NCBI RefSeq assembly: GCF_000147875.1
Contig: NC_014507.1
Location: 868,001-932,000 of the forward strand
DNA length: 64,000 nt
Direction of reading: 5' to 3'
Origin: Methanolacinia petrolearia DSM 11571
GTDB lineage: Archaea; Halobacteriota; Methanomicrobia; Methanomicrobiales; Methanomicrobiaceae
Shown here: positions 32,932 to 51,161 of the stretch, piece after piece
Layout of the letters: the number at the start of each line of letters is the position of its first letter
Position numbering within the stretch: the first letter of the stretch is position 1
Program-made: the position numbers and the translations under genes
The notes under the pieces: model-generated
Database searches by the model: none
Seen by the model: the letters and a program-made list of their open reading frames with translations, nothing else
Told to the model about the DNA's origin: nothing

Positions 32932-33630
32932 ATGGATTTCAGCGGGCATTTTGAAAAATTCGTCGGGATGAACAAATCCTTCTCCTGCCCGGAAGAATGC
33001 GGACTCAGGAACCACTCCAAAATCCCTGCGGTCTGGGTTCCTCCACCACAGGATCACCCTTTCGCCGGAATGATCATATCGAGATATCCCACGACGGCGT
33101 TCATTCCATATTATAATGAAGCAGGATCATTGCCTCTTCCCGAATGGCGTGAGCAGCTCTTTCACTGCAATGCAATTCCTGACTGGACCTTCGATAAGAT
33201 TGAAAGGTTCAGCGGGAAATGTACGGAAGATCCCCTCTCCCCGGAAGAACTGGAAAACTTCAGGGACACTCTTTTCAATTCAGTATACTGGACGCATCTT
33301 CACAAGTGCTGCACCGATAAGAAAAAGTTGGAATCCCTGAATTTCAGGAGAACAAACGCCCGGCTTTGTGCCGACATGTGGCTCAAGTCCGAGATCGAAT
33401 ATGCCTCCCGCGAGGGAATCAGGTTCATCATTACCCTCGGGAGGGACATGGAGAGGTGGTTCGACAGAACGGGAAACGAGATCCTCTCCGGCAGTGCGAT
33501 CACAATATATCATCTCCCCCATCCTTCCGGGGCGAACAACGGTTCGTGGTTCCCGAAGGACGAGCAGAAACGAAGGATGCTTGAGGAAAAGATCCGGGAA
33601 CTCGTTATGGAGTGTCAAACCAACCCGTGA
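32932..33630 (+). CDS. Uracil-DNA glycosylase superfamily-like protein
   Basis: 232 residues starting at ATG 32932. The C-terminal half reads GIRFIITLGRDMERWF and IYHLPHPSGANNG, which match the order 'xxLG...' and 'HPS' (motif B) of the uracil-DNA glycosylase superfamily. The N-terminal part contains the cysteines SCPEECGLRN and, later, HKCCTDKKK, which might ligate a cluster as in families 4 and 5, but the spacing differs. The active-site start motif (GxxPG) is not evident, so activity is uncertain. It is transcribed alone, divergent from importer operon 1. Confidence 0.65.
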   Translation: MDFSGHFEKFVGMNKSFSCPEECGLRNHSKIPAVWVPPPQDHPFAGMIISRYPTTAFIPYYNEAGSLPLPEWREQLFHCNAIPDWTFDKIERFSGKCTEDPLSPEELENFRDTLFNSVYWTHLHKCCTDKKKLESLNFRRTNARLCADMWLKSEIEYASREGIRFIITLGRDMERWFDRTGNEILSGSAITIYHLPHPSGANNGSWFPKDEQKRRMLEEKIRELVMECQTNP

Positions 33631-45091: not shown

Positions 45092-46396
45092 ATGTCCTGG
45101 CTCGTCGAGATCGTCATTATAATACTGTTAATAGGACTTAACGGTCTTTTTGCAATGTCGGAATTTGCAATAGTGTCCGCCAGAAAGACCCGGCTGCTAC
45201 GGCGCTCGGAGAGCGGGGACAAGCGTGCCTCCGCCGCCCTGGAGCTTGCGGAAGATCCGACGAATTTTCTCTCGACTATCCAGATAGGTATAACGCTCGT
45301 CGGCATATTCGCGGGAGCATTCGGCGGTATAACGCTGGCCGCGGAGCTTTCGGATTTTTTTACGGATTATCCTACTCTTGCACCTTACAGCGAGGCGCTG
45401 AGCATTACACTTGTGGTCCTTGCCATAACCTACCTGACCCTCGTGTTTGGTGAGCTCGTCCCGAAAAGGATTGCACTTAATAATGCGGAGGATATCGCGT
45501 CGAAAGTTGCTAAGCCAATGCGGATTTTATCCAAAGCGGCCGCTCCGCTGGTGTTCATCCTCAGTTTTTCGACCAAAGCGGTCACGAAGCTGCTGCGGGT
45601 GAAGGAGAGTCCCGGACCTGCTGTAACAGAGGATGACGTGAGGATCATGCTCGAGGAGGGGACGAAAGCGGGGGTCTTCGAAAAGGCCGAACAGCACATG
45701 GTCGAATGCGTATTCGATCTCGGCGACCGGACTGTCGAATCCCTGATGACTCACCGTTCCGGAATCGTCGCGCTGAATCTTGAAGACCCGGACGAGGAGA
45801 ACCTGCTTAAAATGAAAGAGGCCGGCCACCTGAACTTCCCGGCATACGAGGGAGACCTGGACAATATCGTCGGTGTTGTGTCGGTGAAGAATGTTCTCGC
45901 GGTTATGGCCGACCACGGGAGACCGGATATCAGGGCAGCGGTCACCGAGCCTCTTTTCGTGCCAGAGACTCTCCATGTACTGCAGCTCATCGAATGCTTC
46001 AGGGAGGCCGGGTTTCACGTTGCACTTGCGACGGACGAATACGGCGACATAAGCGGACTCGTAACCCTGCACGATATCCTCGAAGCGATCGTCGGGGCTG
46101 TCCGCGAGCCCGGCCAGCCGGCGGAGGAGCCGTTCGTCCAAAGGGAGGACGGGTCATGGCTGGTCGACGGAATGGCCCGCATCGACGCGGTGAAAAAGAT
46201 CCTTCCGCTGGACAAGCTGCCGGGGGAGGAAGGGGGCAATTACGATACTGTCGCCGGCCTGGTGATGTATGTCCTTCAGAGGGTGCCGGCGGAGGGCGAT
46301 CACTTCGTGGAGGGAGGTTTTAAGTTCGAGGTGGTGGACATGGACGGGAACCGTGTCGATAAGGTGATCGTTTCGAAGGCGGGGGAGGGATCTTAA
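45092..46396 (+). CDS. CNNM/CorC-type (HlyC) membrane protein
   Basis: 434 residues. The N-terminal DUF21/CNNM domain (about 1-190) has four membrane segments and motifs GLNGLFAMSEFAIVSARKTR and LVFGELVPKRIALNNAEDIA. Two CBS domains (about 205-330) follow the acidic linker EDDVRIMLEEGTKAGVFEKA. The CorC_HlyC domain (about 345-432) reads REDGSWLVDGMARIDAVKKI and HFVEGGFKFEVVDMDGNRV. Such proteins take part in magnesium/cobalt efflux or homeostasis; the hemolysin label in databases is historical. It is transcribed alone, 93 bases after the MTH865-family gene. Confidence 0.88.
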   Translation: MSWLVEIVIIILLIGLNGLFAMSEFAIVSARKTRLLRRSESGDKRASAALELAEDPTNFLSTIQIGITLVGIFAGAFGGITLAAELSDFFTDYPTLAPYSEALSITLVVLAITYLTLVFGELVPKRIALNNAEDIASKVAKPMRILSKAAAPLVFILSFSTKAVTKLLRVKESPGPAVTEDDVRIMLEEGTKAGVFEKAEQHMVECVFDLGDRTVESLMTHRSGIVALNLEDPDEENLLKMKEAGHLNFPAYEGDLDNIVGVVSVKNVLAVMADHGRPDIRAAVTEPLFVPETLHVLQLIECFREAGFHVALATDEYGDISGLVTLHDILEAIVGAVREPGQPAEEPFVQREDGSWLVDGMARIDAVKKILPLDKLPGEEGGNYDTVAGLVMYVLQRVPAEGDHFVEGGFKFEVVDMDGNRVDKVIVSKAGEGS

Positions 46397-46418
46397 GAAA
46401 AGTGAATGGATTTGTATA

Positions 46419-46799
46419 TCATTTTTTATGGGAATTTTTTCTTATAATTTTATTTCTCTCAACTAAAGCTATGCCAATAAGAGCCACAGCTACAAAAATC
46501 ATTGTGAAAATAATTTGAATAAATCCATATGGCTCTTTAAATAAAGCTATTGATGCTATTAGCATTGCCGTTAACATTATGAAAAGGGAGGGAAGTTGTT
46601 TCAGTACCCAATGATCTTCATTATTTTCAAGCATCTCAATGATTTTGTTTTGATTGATCTCAATATTTACAATATGATCGATTAATAACAAAGTTATAGA
46701 GTTTTTAGAAAGAAGTTGGCTGAACTCTTCCTTTTCGTCTAATTTTTTATCCCATTCTTTCATGTCATCATGAATTCTATCGAAATTGTTTGGTTCCAT
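46419..46799 (-). CDS. Small two-helix membrane protein downstream of Gabija
   Basis: 126 residues. The N-terminal half is charged and helical, with coiled-coil character (DDMKEWDKKLDEKEEFSQLL). Two membrane helices follow (about residues 72-90 and 95-114), with a basic tail (ERNKIIRKNSHKK). It is AT-rich like the two defence genes upstream, on the same strand and 77 bases after the helicase gene. It may be an accessory of that system or a passenger of the same island. No family recognised. Confidence 0.65.
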   Translation of the reverse strand: MEPNNFDRIHDDMKEWDKKLDEKEEFSQLLSKNSITLLLIDHIVNIEINQNKIIEMLENNEDHWVLKQLPSLFIMLTAMLIASIALFKEPYGFIQIIFTMIFVAVALIGIALVERNKIIRKNSHKK

Positions 46800-46876
46800 G
46801 ATGGAAATATTTCAGGATGTTGTATTTATACTCGCAACATAATCTAAAGGTAAGAAAATTATAATTTATACTGCAA

Positions 46877-48841
46877 TTAAAACCAATTATATAATGTTAC
46901 TTTTTCTTTGTATTCATTAGAACCTAGAAATTTAAGATCCCATCCACGACTTCTTAATTTGGCCCATGTATCAGGATTTGTAAAACATATTGGTAATGCC
47001 AAACATAGCAAATCAGTTGGACGTGTCATAGCTACATAATGACATTTTAAGCGATTATTATTTGAATTCTGTGTAGATCTGCCTTTTACATCACCTGTTA
47101 GCCAATCTATAAGATAAATTAAATTTGTTTTAAATTCCCTTCCCTTCCAGAATGTATCTAATACCAATGTAGCAAAATGAGTTTGACCTTTTATTGAGTG
47201 TATTGAGCCTAAATTGATGTTTAATTGACGTTCTCCATCGTTAAAATGGAAATTATTTTGAATATTTACGCTTTTATCAAATAAACATATAAATTCTGAA
47301 GAATCATCCCAATTAAAAAAAGATAAATCATGTGGTAAATTACCATCACTAATAATCTTTACCATCTCCAATAATTTTGGCTTGATGTGACCATTCCATT
47401 TTTCTTCGTCTAGATTTTTTAGTTTAAATAATTCATATAACCAAACTAAATACTCCTTATTCCCATTATTTTCTAATAAAAGCTGATTTGAGATAAATCT
47501 ATAGGGATTTCTTATATTATAGATCTTTTCAGTTCCAGCATTTTCATTAATAAATCGAATTAGTCCTTTTGAAAAAAAGTTTAATCCATAATTGAAATCG
47601 TGATTCTCTTTTATTAGATTAATACTAAGTTTTAGATAGTCTATCATCAAATTAGGGTTATAATCTTTTTTATTTCTGTGTTGGTGATAATTTGTCCAAT
47701 AAGATACAACAGTATATTTATCAGAATTGTCTGGCTTTTTATGGACCATACCTACTGCATAAACATCTTGTTTTTTTAAGGACTCTATTGTTTCTTGTGA
47801 GAAATTCTTAAAAATGATATCACAGAATGTAGGTAAAACATCTTTAATAAATTCTTTTTCAAAAAGTATTATTGTATTTTTTGAATTATTGTTTACTTGG
47901 CCACCTTTACCTTCCATATTATATGGAATCAAACCAAGAGGATCTGACAGTTTAGCAATTTTTTGATTGAATCTTAGACTGTCTGAAATGGTAAGATATC
48001 CGTTTTGCGGAAAAGGTTCGCTTTTAACGTTTTCATTAGCATTGTAATTGTGGAAAATTGCTTGATTTCCGTCACCAAATCTTTGTTTGATAATATTTTT
48101 ATCCGGAAAAGGAAAGATCTTGGATAAAATTAAATTTTGCTCTTCAGTACAATCTTGTGCTTCATCAACAAAACATATCAAAAAACGAGTTTGGATACTA
48201 TTTTTTAATGAAGGTACTTTATTTAAGGCATCTTTTGTAAATACAAAAACTTCATCATATGTAAAAATCCCTTTTTCGAAGCTTTCATTAATTGATCCTT
48301 TAATTTTTTGGTAAGTCTGAGATTCGGGCTTTAATAGACTTTTTCCCCAAGATATAGGGCGAGGATTACCCAAAATGTCTGTTGCTGAAAGAATATTTAA
48401 CGGTTCATGGTGGTTTTTTGATATACCTGATTGATACTTTTGAGGTATTCTCTTCCATCGATAATTTATTGCAACTTCGGTATCGATCATTGTAACGGGA
48501 AATCTCATTGACCTAATCCAAGGAAGTGCAATATATTGATTAAAAAAACCATGGATAGTTCCTATAAAATGTGGATGAGAAAGGAGTTTTTTACCTAAAT
48601 CTGTATTTCCAAGTTTATCTTCAATTTCTTTTCTGGCGGCATTTGTGTGAGATAAAATACATATCCCTTGTTTATTATTGGTCCAGTATTTTGCTAGAAT
48701 TGCCAATTTAGCAACTAATAATGTTGTTTTTCCACTTCCTGGGCAAGCCTGGATATCAACAGTTGATAAATTTTTTAAGGCTTCTTTTCTTTCTCCATCG
48801 AATGCATCTGGGGGCAGTCCCATTATTTTTGTAGCCCACAA
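46877..48841 (-). CDS. gajB: UvrD-like helicase of a Gabija-type defence system
   Basis: 654 residues from TTG 48841. Superfamily 1 motifs appear in order: Walker A ACPGSGKTT (about 32-40), CILSHTNAARKEI (Ia), FVDEAQD (II), QRFGDGNQAIF (III), SIKGQTHFATLVLDT (V) and CHYVAMTRPTDLL (VI). GajB senses or uses DNA ends and acts with the GajA nuclease encoded 75 bases upstream. Gene order and strand match known Gabija loci. Known GajB is about 490 residues, so this one is larger. The frame stays open upstream to a stop near 48904 with a GGGGG site (48897-48901) but no usual start codon, so the real N-terminus may be up to 18 residues longer. Confidence 0.82.
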   Translation of the reverse strand: MWATKIMGLPPDAFDGERKEALKNLSTVDIQACPGSGKTTLLVAKLAILAKYWTNNKQGICILSHTNAARKEIEDKLGNTDLGKKLLSHPHFIGTIHGFFNQYIALPWIRSMRFPVTMIDTEVAINYRWKRIPQKYQSGISKNHHEPLNILSATDILGNPRPISWGKSLLKPESQTYQKIKGSINESFEKGIFTYDEVFVFTKDALNKVPSLKNSIQTRFLICFVDEAQDCTEEQNLILSKIFPFPDKNIIKQRFGDGNQAIFHNYNANENVKSEPFPQNGYLTISDSLRFNQKIAKLSDPLGLIPYNMEGKGGQVNNNSKNTIILFEKEFIKDVLPTFCDIIFKNFSQETIESLKKQDVYAVGMVHKKPDNSDKYTVVSYWTNYHQHRNKKDYNPNLMIDYLKLSINLIKENHDFNYGLNFFSKGLIRFINENAGTEKIYNIRNPYRFISNQLLLENNGNKEYLVWLYELFKLKNLDEEKWNGHIKPKLLEMVKIISDGNLPHDLSFFNWDDSSEFICLFDKSVNIQNNFHFNDGERQLNINLGSIHSIKGQTHFATLVLDTFWKGREFKTNLIYLIDWLTGDVKGRSTQNSNNNRLKCHYVAMTRPTDLLCLALPICFTNPDTWAKLRSRGWDLKFLGSNEYKEKVTLYNWF

Positions 48842-48916
48842 AATATCTTCATCTTTAATTTTTGGTAAAAACTTTACATTGTTTTTGATATTAATTCCCC
48901 CTTACATTGAGTAATT

Positions 48917-50845
48917 TTAAGATTTTATCACATCATTGAAAAGGTAATTAAACATTCCTAAAATGTAATTGGGCAGTTTTTCTTGTAGTTCAGCCGGATT
49001 TTTAGAATAATTATCATCCAATATTTTTGCAAGATATTGAGCACTAATTGGTTTTGATGCTTTTGTACCTTTAGTAAATTCTGAATGTATATACGAAGCT
49101 TTCTCTTCAGGATCATTAATTTTTTCAATTGTTTTGGAATACTCTTCTTCGTATTCATGATAAGAGTCTTCATATGAAGCCTTTTTTGAAACTAATTCTT
49201 CATCAATTTTGCTCAATTTTGCTGCAATATATACTTCTTTTCCCAATCCAGCAAAAGCAAGATTATATTCAAAAGTCCATTCATCTGAAACAAAGGATTT
49301 TACATTTTGACCCTCACATTTTTCTCTAATTTCTTTCCTTTTATTTTCAATGCCCTCATCATCAAATTCGGATTTAACCTTCCAACGCCTGTTTTTTGGC
49401 CACTTATCTCGGTTTTTATATTCCTCATTCAAACAGATTTCTGGGGCACAATTTGGTAAAATATCCAAATCTGTAATACAGGCTACAGGAATATTGACGA
49501 ATTCTTCATCTTCATTACTTCGTTGAAAAATTTTGGCGTATCTACTTAGACCTGTCCCGTCAACATTTACAATGGAAACTCCATAATCTGCAAAATCACA
49601 ATCTAATATCTTTGCGATAGTTGGCAGAAGAATATTTTCAGATGGTCCCTCGACAATTATCACAGATTTAGCAAAAAATAAATTGGCTTTAGTAGCGTCC
49701 AAATAACGTTCTAGGAATGAATAATCTGAAGGTTTCAATTTTGTATGTTCTTTTCCTAAAGAAAAGGCCTTTCCATTTTGAATTAATACGACATTTTCTA
49801 ATTTAATTACGGATGCTAAAATTGGGGAATGAGTGGTTGTAAGTATTTGAACATTATTTTTAATTGCTTCATTTTGTAGTGATTTCAGTATTTTTAATTG
49901 TCTCTGAACATGGATATGTGATTCTGGTTCTTCTAGAAGTAACATCTTATTACCATCATCTTCTTGTTGAAGAAGCAATAATTCACAAGCCATGTATAGT
50001 AAATTATTTGTTCCTAATCCCAGAGTTCCAGAACATAGTTCTTCTTTTTCAATATTAAGGGTTAATTTCTCTAGCATTTGCTTTAGTTGTTGATCTGTAT
50101 TGTTTGTTTTCCCCTTAATTTCAATATTTGATTGAATTTTATCTTGCTTTAAAAGAAATTTATCGGATAAATTGTTATCTATCTGTTCTTTTGTTTCCTT
50201 GATTCCTTTATGATTTATAAGTAATGAATCTGCAAGATTTGCGATACCAAGAACTGATAAATCTTTTAAATCACTTTCTTTTTCGTATTTATCCTTTCCA
50301 CTTTTTATAGAATCTATATTTTTTAGAATTTGAGCTAATCTTGAATTTTTTCTAGAACTCATTGCATTTTCAGCATCTCGAAGAGGCTTTAGGTATGTGG
50401 TTTTTAACAATTCGCGAGTGTCTTCATTGAATGATGGGCCATCTGCTTTTATCCCAGAACTAATTTCAGTCGAGATAAATTCCCTTTTGCCAATGATTTT
50501 CTTCTTTGCTGACCAATTAAAATAAAGAACCTCTTTTACTGATTCTCCAGTTTGTTCATATGTTAAATATTGTAAAAAAATTCCACTTTCATTTTGTGAA
50601 AGTTCTTCAAATTTACATGTTATTTTTATTTCTCTTGACGTATCTTCATTATAAAAATCTGTATCTTTTATTTTATTCCATTCTTGATCACGTGTTCCTA
50701 TTGCATATCTAATTGCATCAATAATTGCTGTTTTGCCAGAATCATTTTCTCCAACAAAAACGGTTAATCCTTTCTTAATATCGAGATCTATGCCAATTTC
50801 ATCGTAACAACGGAAATTTGTGATTTTAAGATTGGAGAGATGCAT
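48917..50845 (-). CDS. gajA: OLD-family ATPase-nuclease of a Gabija-type defence system
   Basis: 642 residues, ATG 50845. The ATPase domain has Walker A GENDSGKT (32-39), signature GLGTNNLL (276-283), Walker B MLLLEEPESH (301-310) and TTTHS (336-340). A C-terminal Toprim nuclease domain follows, with Glu399 in VIIVEGPSEN and the D-x-D pair Asp459/Asp461 in CITDLD. The order ATPase-Toprim and the helicase gene just downstream define a Gabija GajAB pair, or a close class 2 OLD-UvrD relative. It would cut phage or other invading DNA. Known GajA has about 580 residues. The region is markedly AT-rich, which suggests transfer. Confidence 0.85.
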   Translation of the reverse strand: MHLSNLKITNFRCYDEIGIDLDIKKGLTVFVGENDSGKTAIIDAIRYAIGTRDQEWNKIKDTDFYNEDTSREIKITCKFEELSQNESGIFLQYLTYEQTGESVKEVLYFNWSAKKKIIGKREFISTEISSGIKADGPSFNEDTRELLKTTYLKPLRDAENAMSSRKNSRLAQILKNIDSIKSGKDKYEKESDLKDLSVLGIANLADSLLINHKGIKETKEQIDNNLSDKFLLKQDKIQSNIEIKGKTNNTDQQLKQMLEKLTLNIEKEELCSGTLGLGTNNLLYMACELLLLQQEDDGNKMLLLEEPESHIHVQRQLKILKSLQNEAIKNNVQILTTTHSPILASVIKLENVVLIQNGKAFSLGKEHTKLKPSDYSFLERYLDATKANLFFAKSVIIVEGPSENILLPTIAKILDCDFADYGVSIVNVDGTGLSRYAKIFQRSNEDEEFVNIPVACITDLDILPNCAPEICLNEEYKNRDKWPKNRRWKVKSEFDDEGIENKRKEIREKCEGQNVKSFVSDEWTFEYNLAFAGLGKEVYIAAKLSKIDEELVSKKASYEDSYHEYEEEYSKTIEKINDPEEKASYIHSEFTKGTKASKPISAQYLAKILDDNYSKNPAELQEKLPNYILGMFNYLFNDVIKS

Positions 50846-51086
50846 ATTATCAACTGAGTAATATGAGTTCTTTTACTTTTTTATCCAGTTTCAAAATTGT
50901 AAATTTATTAAAAAATAAATAGAATAATTGAACGTATTCTGTTTTAACAGAACCAAGTTATGATAGTGACTTAAATGAATTAGCTCACTTCAATTTTTAT
51001 ACCAGAGTGTCTTGTTTAAATTTTTCGAAATAATCTTGGTTCCTTTGCTCAATCTTTTTCTTAGAGCATTTAACTTCAAAACAGAG

Positions 51087-51161
51087 TGCTGATATGGGGA
51101 TTCGAACCCCAGTCGCAGGAGTGAGAGTCCTGCATGATTGGCCGGACTACACTATATCAGC
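51087..51161 (-). tRNA. tRNA-Glu (anticodon CTC)
   Basis: The minus strand folds into a full cloverleaf. The acceptor stem is GCTGATA (51161-51155) with TATCAGC (51094-51088), and the discriminator is A at 51087. The anticodon stem is CAGGA/TCCTG around a CTCTCAC loop, giving anticodon CTC (Glu, codon GAG). The T arm contains GGTTCGAATCC. CCA is not encoded. Its 3' end points at the AT-rich Gabija island, a usual place for integration, but no direct repeat of the tRNA end was found at the far side. Confidence 0.93.

Follow-up and report, generated by a model that had tools for sequence, protein, structure and literature searches.

The 64,000-nucleotide stretch analyzed here (the window; bases 868001 to 932000 of the Methanolacinia petrolearia contig, with window coordinates counted from its first base) carries a Gabija gene pair, gajA and gajB, in an AT-rich block beside a tRNA-Glu(CTC) gene (Table 1). 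Judging from sequence, we put at roughly 0.87 the probability that these genes constitute a complete, probably functional Gabija antivirus system and that an ancestor of M. petrolearia obtained it by horizontal transfer, most likely with a bacterium as donor, at a variable tRNA-Glu spot. Gabija itself is a known system type, and the locus illustrates well how defense genes are exchanged at a single chromosomal position. It also puts on record a Gabija pair of bacterial type in a cultured methanogen, M. petrolearia SEBR 4847T (formerly Methanoplanus petrolearius), whose genome paper gives a G+C content of 47.4% and lists no CRISPR repeats (PMC3035365). Our literature search found no paper dedicated to archaeal Gabija.

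Identification of the pair as Gabija

As proposed in an earlier, sequence-only reading of this DNA, the two open reading frames (ORFs) encode an OLD ATPase-Toprim nuclease and a UvrD-like helicase that lie in the Gabija order on one strand. Four lines of evidence fully support the identification of the pair as a Gabija system: family models, synteny, active-site residues, and fold. The PADLOC GajA model matched residues 1 to 638 of the window GajA (E = 4e-198) and the PADLOC GajB model matched residues 2 to 637 of the window GajB (E = 5.8e-182; model positions 18 to 646). Both matches, from a check that the earlier reading had suggested, thus cover nearly the full length of the proteins. Pfam identified AAA_15 and OLD-like_TOPRIM in GajA and UvrD-helicase in GajB; NCBIfam models stayed below their cut-offs for both proteins.

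The catalytic motifs described in that reading are present at the positions given there, with the superfamily 1 (SF1) helicase motifs intact, and all are invariant among relatives. In GajA these are the Toprim residues E399, D459, and D461 (39-sequence alignment), to which the invariant E403 and E526 and the nearly invariant K598 can be added; in GajB, the alignment of relatives shows K38, D226/E227, Q260, R290, and R607 to be invariant. E399, E403, D459, and D461 match by position the active-site residues E379, E383, D432, and D434 of Bacillus cereus GajA, whose active-site set also includes D511 and K541 (PMC10781630, PMC10822852). We infer that E526 and K598 may be the counterparts of D511 and K541.

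Structure predictions were made with AlphaFold for single chains. The GajA model (predicted local distance difference test score [pLDDT], 90.4) corresponds end to end (residues 1 to 638/641) to solved GajA, with Z scores of 20.7 over 495 residues for 8x5i and 19.2 for 8sm3. The class 1 OLD nuclease of Thermus scotoductus (6p74) ties with solved GajA as a match (Z = 20.3) and is the top Foldseek hit by E value. This enzyme has the ATPase-Toprim architecture in common with the window protein but, in contrast to it, lacks a partner helicase. SMC heads match only the ATPase domain of the model, with scores tied with or below those of solved GajA. GajA used as a query against the sequences of solved structures likewise matched GajA and the Thermus OLD nuclease.

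To collect relatives, 84,980 species genomes were searched with an alignment as the query. Of the 227 related stretches returned, the best 80, every one of them bacterial, were examined together with 13 archaeal and 6 plasmid loci. A single-protein scan of genome contigs with GajB had found no relatives, whereas the alignment query did find them. In 99 of the 99 loci gajA immediately precedes gajB on the same strand, mostly with gaps of -19 to +60 nucleotides (nt), and the median sizes are 673 amino acids (aa) for GajA and 664 aa for GajB. Among the neighbors of the plasmid relatives are Shedu, type I restriction, integrase, and reverse-transcriptase genes.

The reference studied pair is the Gabija system of B. 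cereus VD045 (GajA, 578 aa; GajB, ~494 aa; PDB 8sm3, 8u7i, 8x5i). The window pair shares with it the OLD ATPase-Toprim and UvrD-like helicase components, the gene order, the Toprim residues, and the fold of GajA from end to end; it differs in that its GajB exceeds the studied one by 160 aa and is closer to UvrD in overall fold, and in that its host is archaeal. The earlier remark that both proteins are larger than the studied pair holds against these PDB chains but not as a peculiarity, since such sizes are typical of a large-protein subgroup represented by the 80 bacterial loci (Bacillota, Chloroflexota, Planctomycetota, and Pseudomonadota). The window pair resembles this subgroup in sizes, order, and tight spacing (identity, 42 to 48% for GajA and 31 to 39% for GajB) but, unlike its members, is not bacterial and stands alone on a long branch. 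With the Gabija systems of other Methanomicrobiales/Halobacteriota it shares the two genes and their order; those systems, in contrast, form a separate archaeal clade (support of 100 in the GajB tree), and GajA identity to other Methanomicrobiales is only 34 to 36%.

Probable acquisition at a variable tRNA-Glu locus

The presence of the Gabija pair in an AT-rich block beside tRNA-Glu was confirmed. The block lies between a CNNM-family transporter gene and the 3′ end of tRNA-Glu(CTC) and is, as had been noted, far AT-richer than its flanks (~30% versus 56 to 59% G+C). The bias is even, with a G+C content of 0.25 to 0.30 throughout (gajB, 0.299; gajA, 0.304; positions 50846 to 51085, 0.25) compared to values of 0.564 and 0.586 for the neighboring genes. 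DNA alignment with a congener, genome G111, ends at 46374 and picks up again at 51085 to 51087, so that one border coincides exactly with the tRNA 3′ end (51086). The left edge had been drawn too short in the earlier reading; it actually extends to ~46375, taking in a 126-aa ORF.

Neither of the two congeneric genomes searched, G111 and G112 (the latter 84% complete), contains gajB. G111, 94% identical to M. petrolearia in this region, aligns from cooS to the 3′ end of tRNA-Glu(CTC), where the alignment stops. Beyond this point G111 carries a PARIS-like pair of genes, one for a DUF4435 protein matching the AriB model and one for an AAA ATPase matching the AriA model. The same 12-kb PARIS-like flank, with both genes intact, is found in M. 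petrolearia after the other tRNA-Glu gene, tRNA-Glu(TTC) [1014676-1014748(+)]. The two tRNA-Glu genes are oppositely oriented, and the M. petrolearia and G111 genomes differ by a 95.7-kb inversion (95,663 bp between the 3′ ends of the two genes; C1:919086-1014748 in M. petrolearia versus C36/C33 in G111) whose breakpoints are the tRNA 3′ ends. In G112, a third, different sequence follows tRNA-Glu(CTC).

The three congeners thus have three different sequences after tRNA-Glu(CTC) and, together with the modules found at tRNA-Glu ends in G111, this identifies the tRNA-Glu ends as variable spots in the genus. The comparison of this tRNA locus recommended in the sequence-only reading shows the block to be missing from both congeners, with different DNA in its place. 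In this genus, the tRNA-Glu 3′ ends carry interchangeable defense modules, i.e., Gabija, PARIS-like, and an integrase-led CHAT/STAND/HEPN island.

In phylogenetic trees, the window proteins are sister to a Bacillota/Chloroflexota group (support of 97 for GajB and 100 for GajA), and in both trees the remaining archaeal Gabija proteins group together in a separate clade, apart from the window pair. This suggests that the pair was acquired from bacteria, which we infer rather than read directly from the trees because the window branches are long (1.16 for GajB and 0.8 for GajA) and the roots are midpoints; the bacterial sample, in addition, came from a query leaning to the bacterial type. GajB matches were found in 8 of 232 Methanomicrobiales genomes, M. 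petrolearia included. Phage records gave only partial OLD-like matches and lend no support to a viral carrier. Overall, absence from the two congeners, G+C composition, and the bacterial affinity in the trees support a probable recent acquisition.

As to the route of arrival, delivery of the block at the tRNA-Glu gene by a site-specific integrative element, which would be compatible with the reading of the pair as an acquired Gabija system, appears to us evenly balanced. The sequence-only reading had called the tRNA 3′ end a classic integration point. This is indirectly supported by the exact start of the block at that end and by G111, where a tyrosine integrase lies within 40 bp after tRNA-Glu(TTC). 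The G111 integrase heads a 38-kb island (C33:4632-42756) that encodes STAND-like, CHAT-TPR, and HEPN proteins and ends at the same CNNM gene that borders the gajB side in M. petrolearia; a 12-bp copy of the tRNA end is found 36 kb away, near the far side of the island (C33:40755; ~0.1 matches expected by chance according to our estimate). The M. petrolearia block itself, where PADLOC, Pfam, and NCBIfam searches found no integrase and the genes are gajA, gajB, and the 126-aa ORF, does not bear out the classic picture. It has no exact tRNA-end direct repeat of at least 10 nt at the far border, and the window to the left of tRNA-Glu(CTC) contains none of at least 12 nt. With neither integrase nor repeat, the block is at present not recognizable as an integrative element. 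The tRNA end is, moreover, a breakpoint of the 95.7-kb inversion, and the block could have been moved between the tRNA-Glu genes; arrival by homologous exchange is also possible.

Proposed mode of action

In B. cereus, GajA and GajB form a complex in which normal nucleoside triphosphate levels inhibit the nuclease and depletion of the nucleotides switches it on; GajB is the sensor of nicked ends (PMC10822852; see also PMC12796447). The following scheme for M. petrolearia is modeled wholly on that studied system. GajA tetramers would assemble with GajB into a 4:4 complex whose Toprim nuclease is kept off by normal nucleotide levels. An infecting virus that depletes nucleotides or offers suitable DNA ends would then cause GajA to nick or cut DNA, upon which GajB may load on the nicked ends and hydrolyze nucleotides, leading to deeper activation and a stop to virus replication.

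Evidence against the assignment and alternative explanations

Several observations weigh against the reading of the pair as a working Gabija system. The GajB model (pLDDT, 86.9) is nearest to PcrA/UvrD (Z = 22), with solved GajB (8jqb and 8sm3) at a Z of ~15.7, and a single-sequence GajB query against solved structures retrieves PcrA/UvrD only and no GajB. Fold alone would not separate GajB from UvrD, the studied GajB being smaller; what sets the window protein apart from UvrD is the family models, the synteny, and the profile of the GajB subgroup, which reaches solved GajB with an E value of 1.2e-13. Identity between the window and B. cereus GajA proteins, measured by structure, is ~20%, and regulation may differ.

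A further difficulty concerns the start of gajB. The N terminus of GajB in relatives opens with a conserved I-x-D-x-D-I-x-W-A motif, and in the window codons for this motif (PKIKDEDILWA) precede the TTG codon at 48841 in the same frame. The true start of GajB is probably located upstream of this TTG, in an open stretch with no in-frame ATG, GTG, or TTG; a GGGGG tract directly precedes in-frame ATT and ATC codons there. This leaves three options: initiation at a rare codon, translation of a slightly truncated protein from the TTG, or impairment of the gene. The lack of a canonical start codon before the conserved N terminus makes GajB expression uncertain. The locus could accordingly be read as a decaying Gabija remnant that has lost the gajB start codon and, with it, expression, as might also fit a block devoid of integrase and attachment repeat. 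We regard this as quite unlikely, since both frames otherwise run unbroken for more than 640 codons and retain all catalytic residues, and since translation could begin at the TTG or at a rare ATT or ATC codon behind the GGGGG tract.

The other alternative, a stand-alone class 2 OLD nuclease beside a UvrD-type helicase with a role in DNA repair and not defense, could draw on the GajB fold and on the possible non-defense roles of archaeal OLD proteins, such as Cran1 of Sulfolobales, which acts in the cell cycle (PMC12796447), but is made very improbable by the full-length GajA and GajB model matches, the invariant synteny, the AT-rich acquired block, the Shedu and restriction genes adjoining the plasmid relatives, and the absence of the pair from congeners, in which repair genes would be expected.

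The last adverse point concerns how Gabija would spare host DNA. A Pseudomonas study proposed that RecBCD protects host DNA from Gabija (PMC12407980), and this published self/non-self model needs RecBCD; no RecC family match was found in the M. petrolearia genome (AddAB and AdnAB were not searched). With RecC not found, the Pseudomonas model would need a substitute in M. petrolearia, whose genome does contain a NurA gene. We offer only as a tentative and rather doubtful suggestion that the host lacks RecBCD and that discrimination between host and viral DNA may rest on something else, e.g., HerA-NurA end processing or purely nucleotide depletion. Because RecC was not found, this host could be a natural setting for asking if self/non-self discrimination by Gabija depends on RecBCD-like machinery.

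Other features of the locus

Table 1 Features of the Gabija locus in window coordinates
Feature	Position	Strand	Description or basis
gajA	48917-50845	-	642 aa; OLD-family (class 2) ABC-type ATPase plus Toprim nuclease
gajB	46877-48841	-	654 aa counted from TTG at 48841; UvrD-like SF1 helicase
Probable true GajB N terminus	48842-48903	-	Translation compared with relatives' consensus
126-aa ORF	46419-46799	-	Two hydrophobic stretches; inside AT-rich block, outside Gabija core
AT-rich inserted block	46375-51085		Composition and DNA alignment with congener G111
tRNA-Glu(CTC)	51086-51161	-	ARAGORN; Rfam tRNA, 60.8 bits; 3′ end borders block

The 126-aa ORF has no family match in PADLOC, Pfam, or NCBIfam. 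It was considered as a third Gabija component and rejected, as no homologue lies near any of the 99 related loci. Among 231 other genomes of the order it had no credible match, only a stop-ridden one at an E value of 1e-3. Sigma-70-type promoter matches were no commoner than in shuffled sequence, as expected for an archaeon.

Among the bacterial genomes, near-identical Gabija contigs from one project were binned to Alteromonadaceae and Flavobacteriaceae metagenome-assembled genomes, probably through a binning error in one of them. A 232-aa ORF at window positions 32932 to 33630 has a homologue in G112 directly after the 3′ end of tRNA-Glu(CTC), from which it is 17 kb away in M. petrolearia. 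The PARIS-like pair, located beside different tRNA-Glu genes in G111 (L036, 6784-9520) and M. petrolearia (L067, 9825-12558; C1, ~1014824-1017557), consists of an AriB-like protein of 330 aa and an AriA-like protein of 583 aa with a long N-terminal extension ahead of the ATPase.

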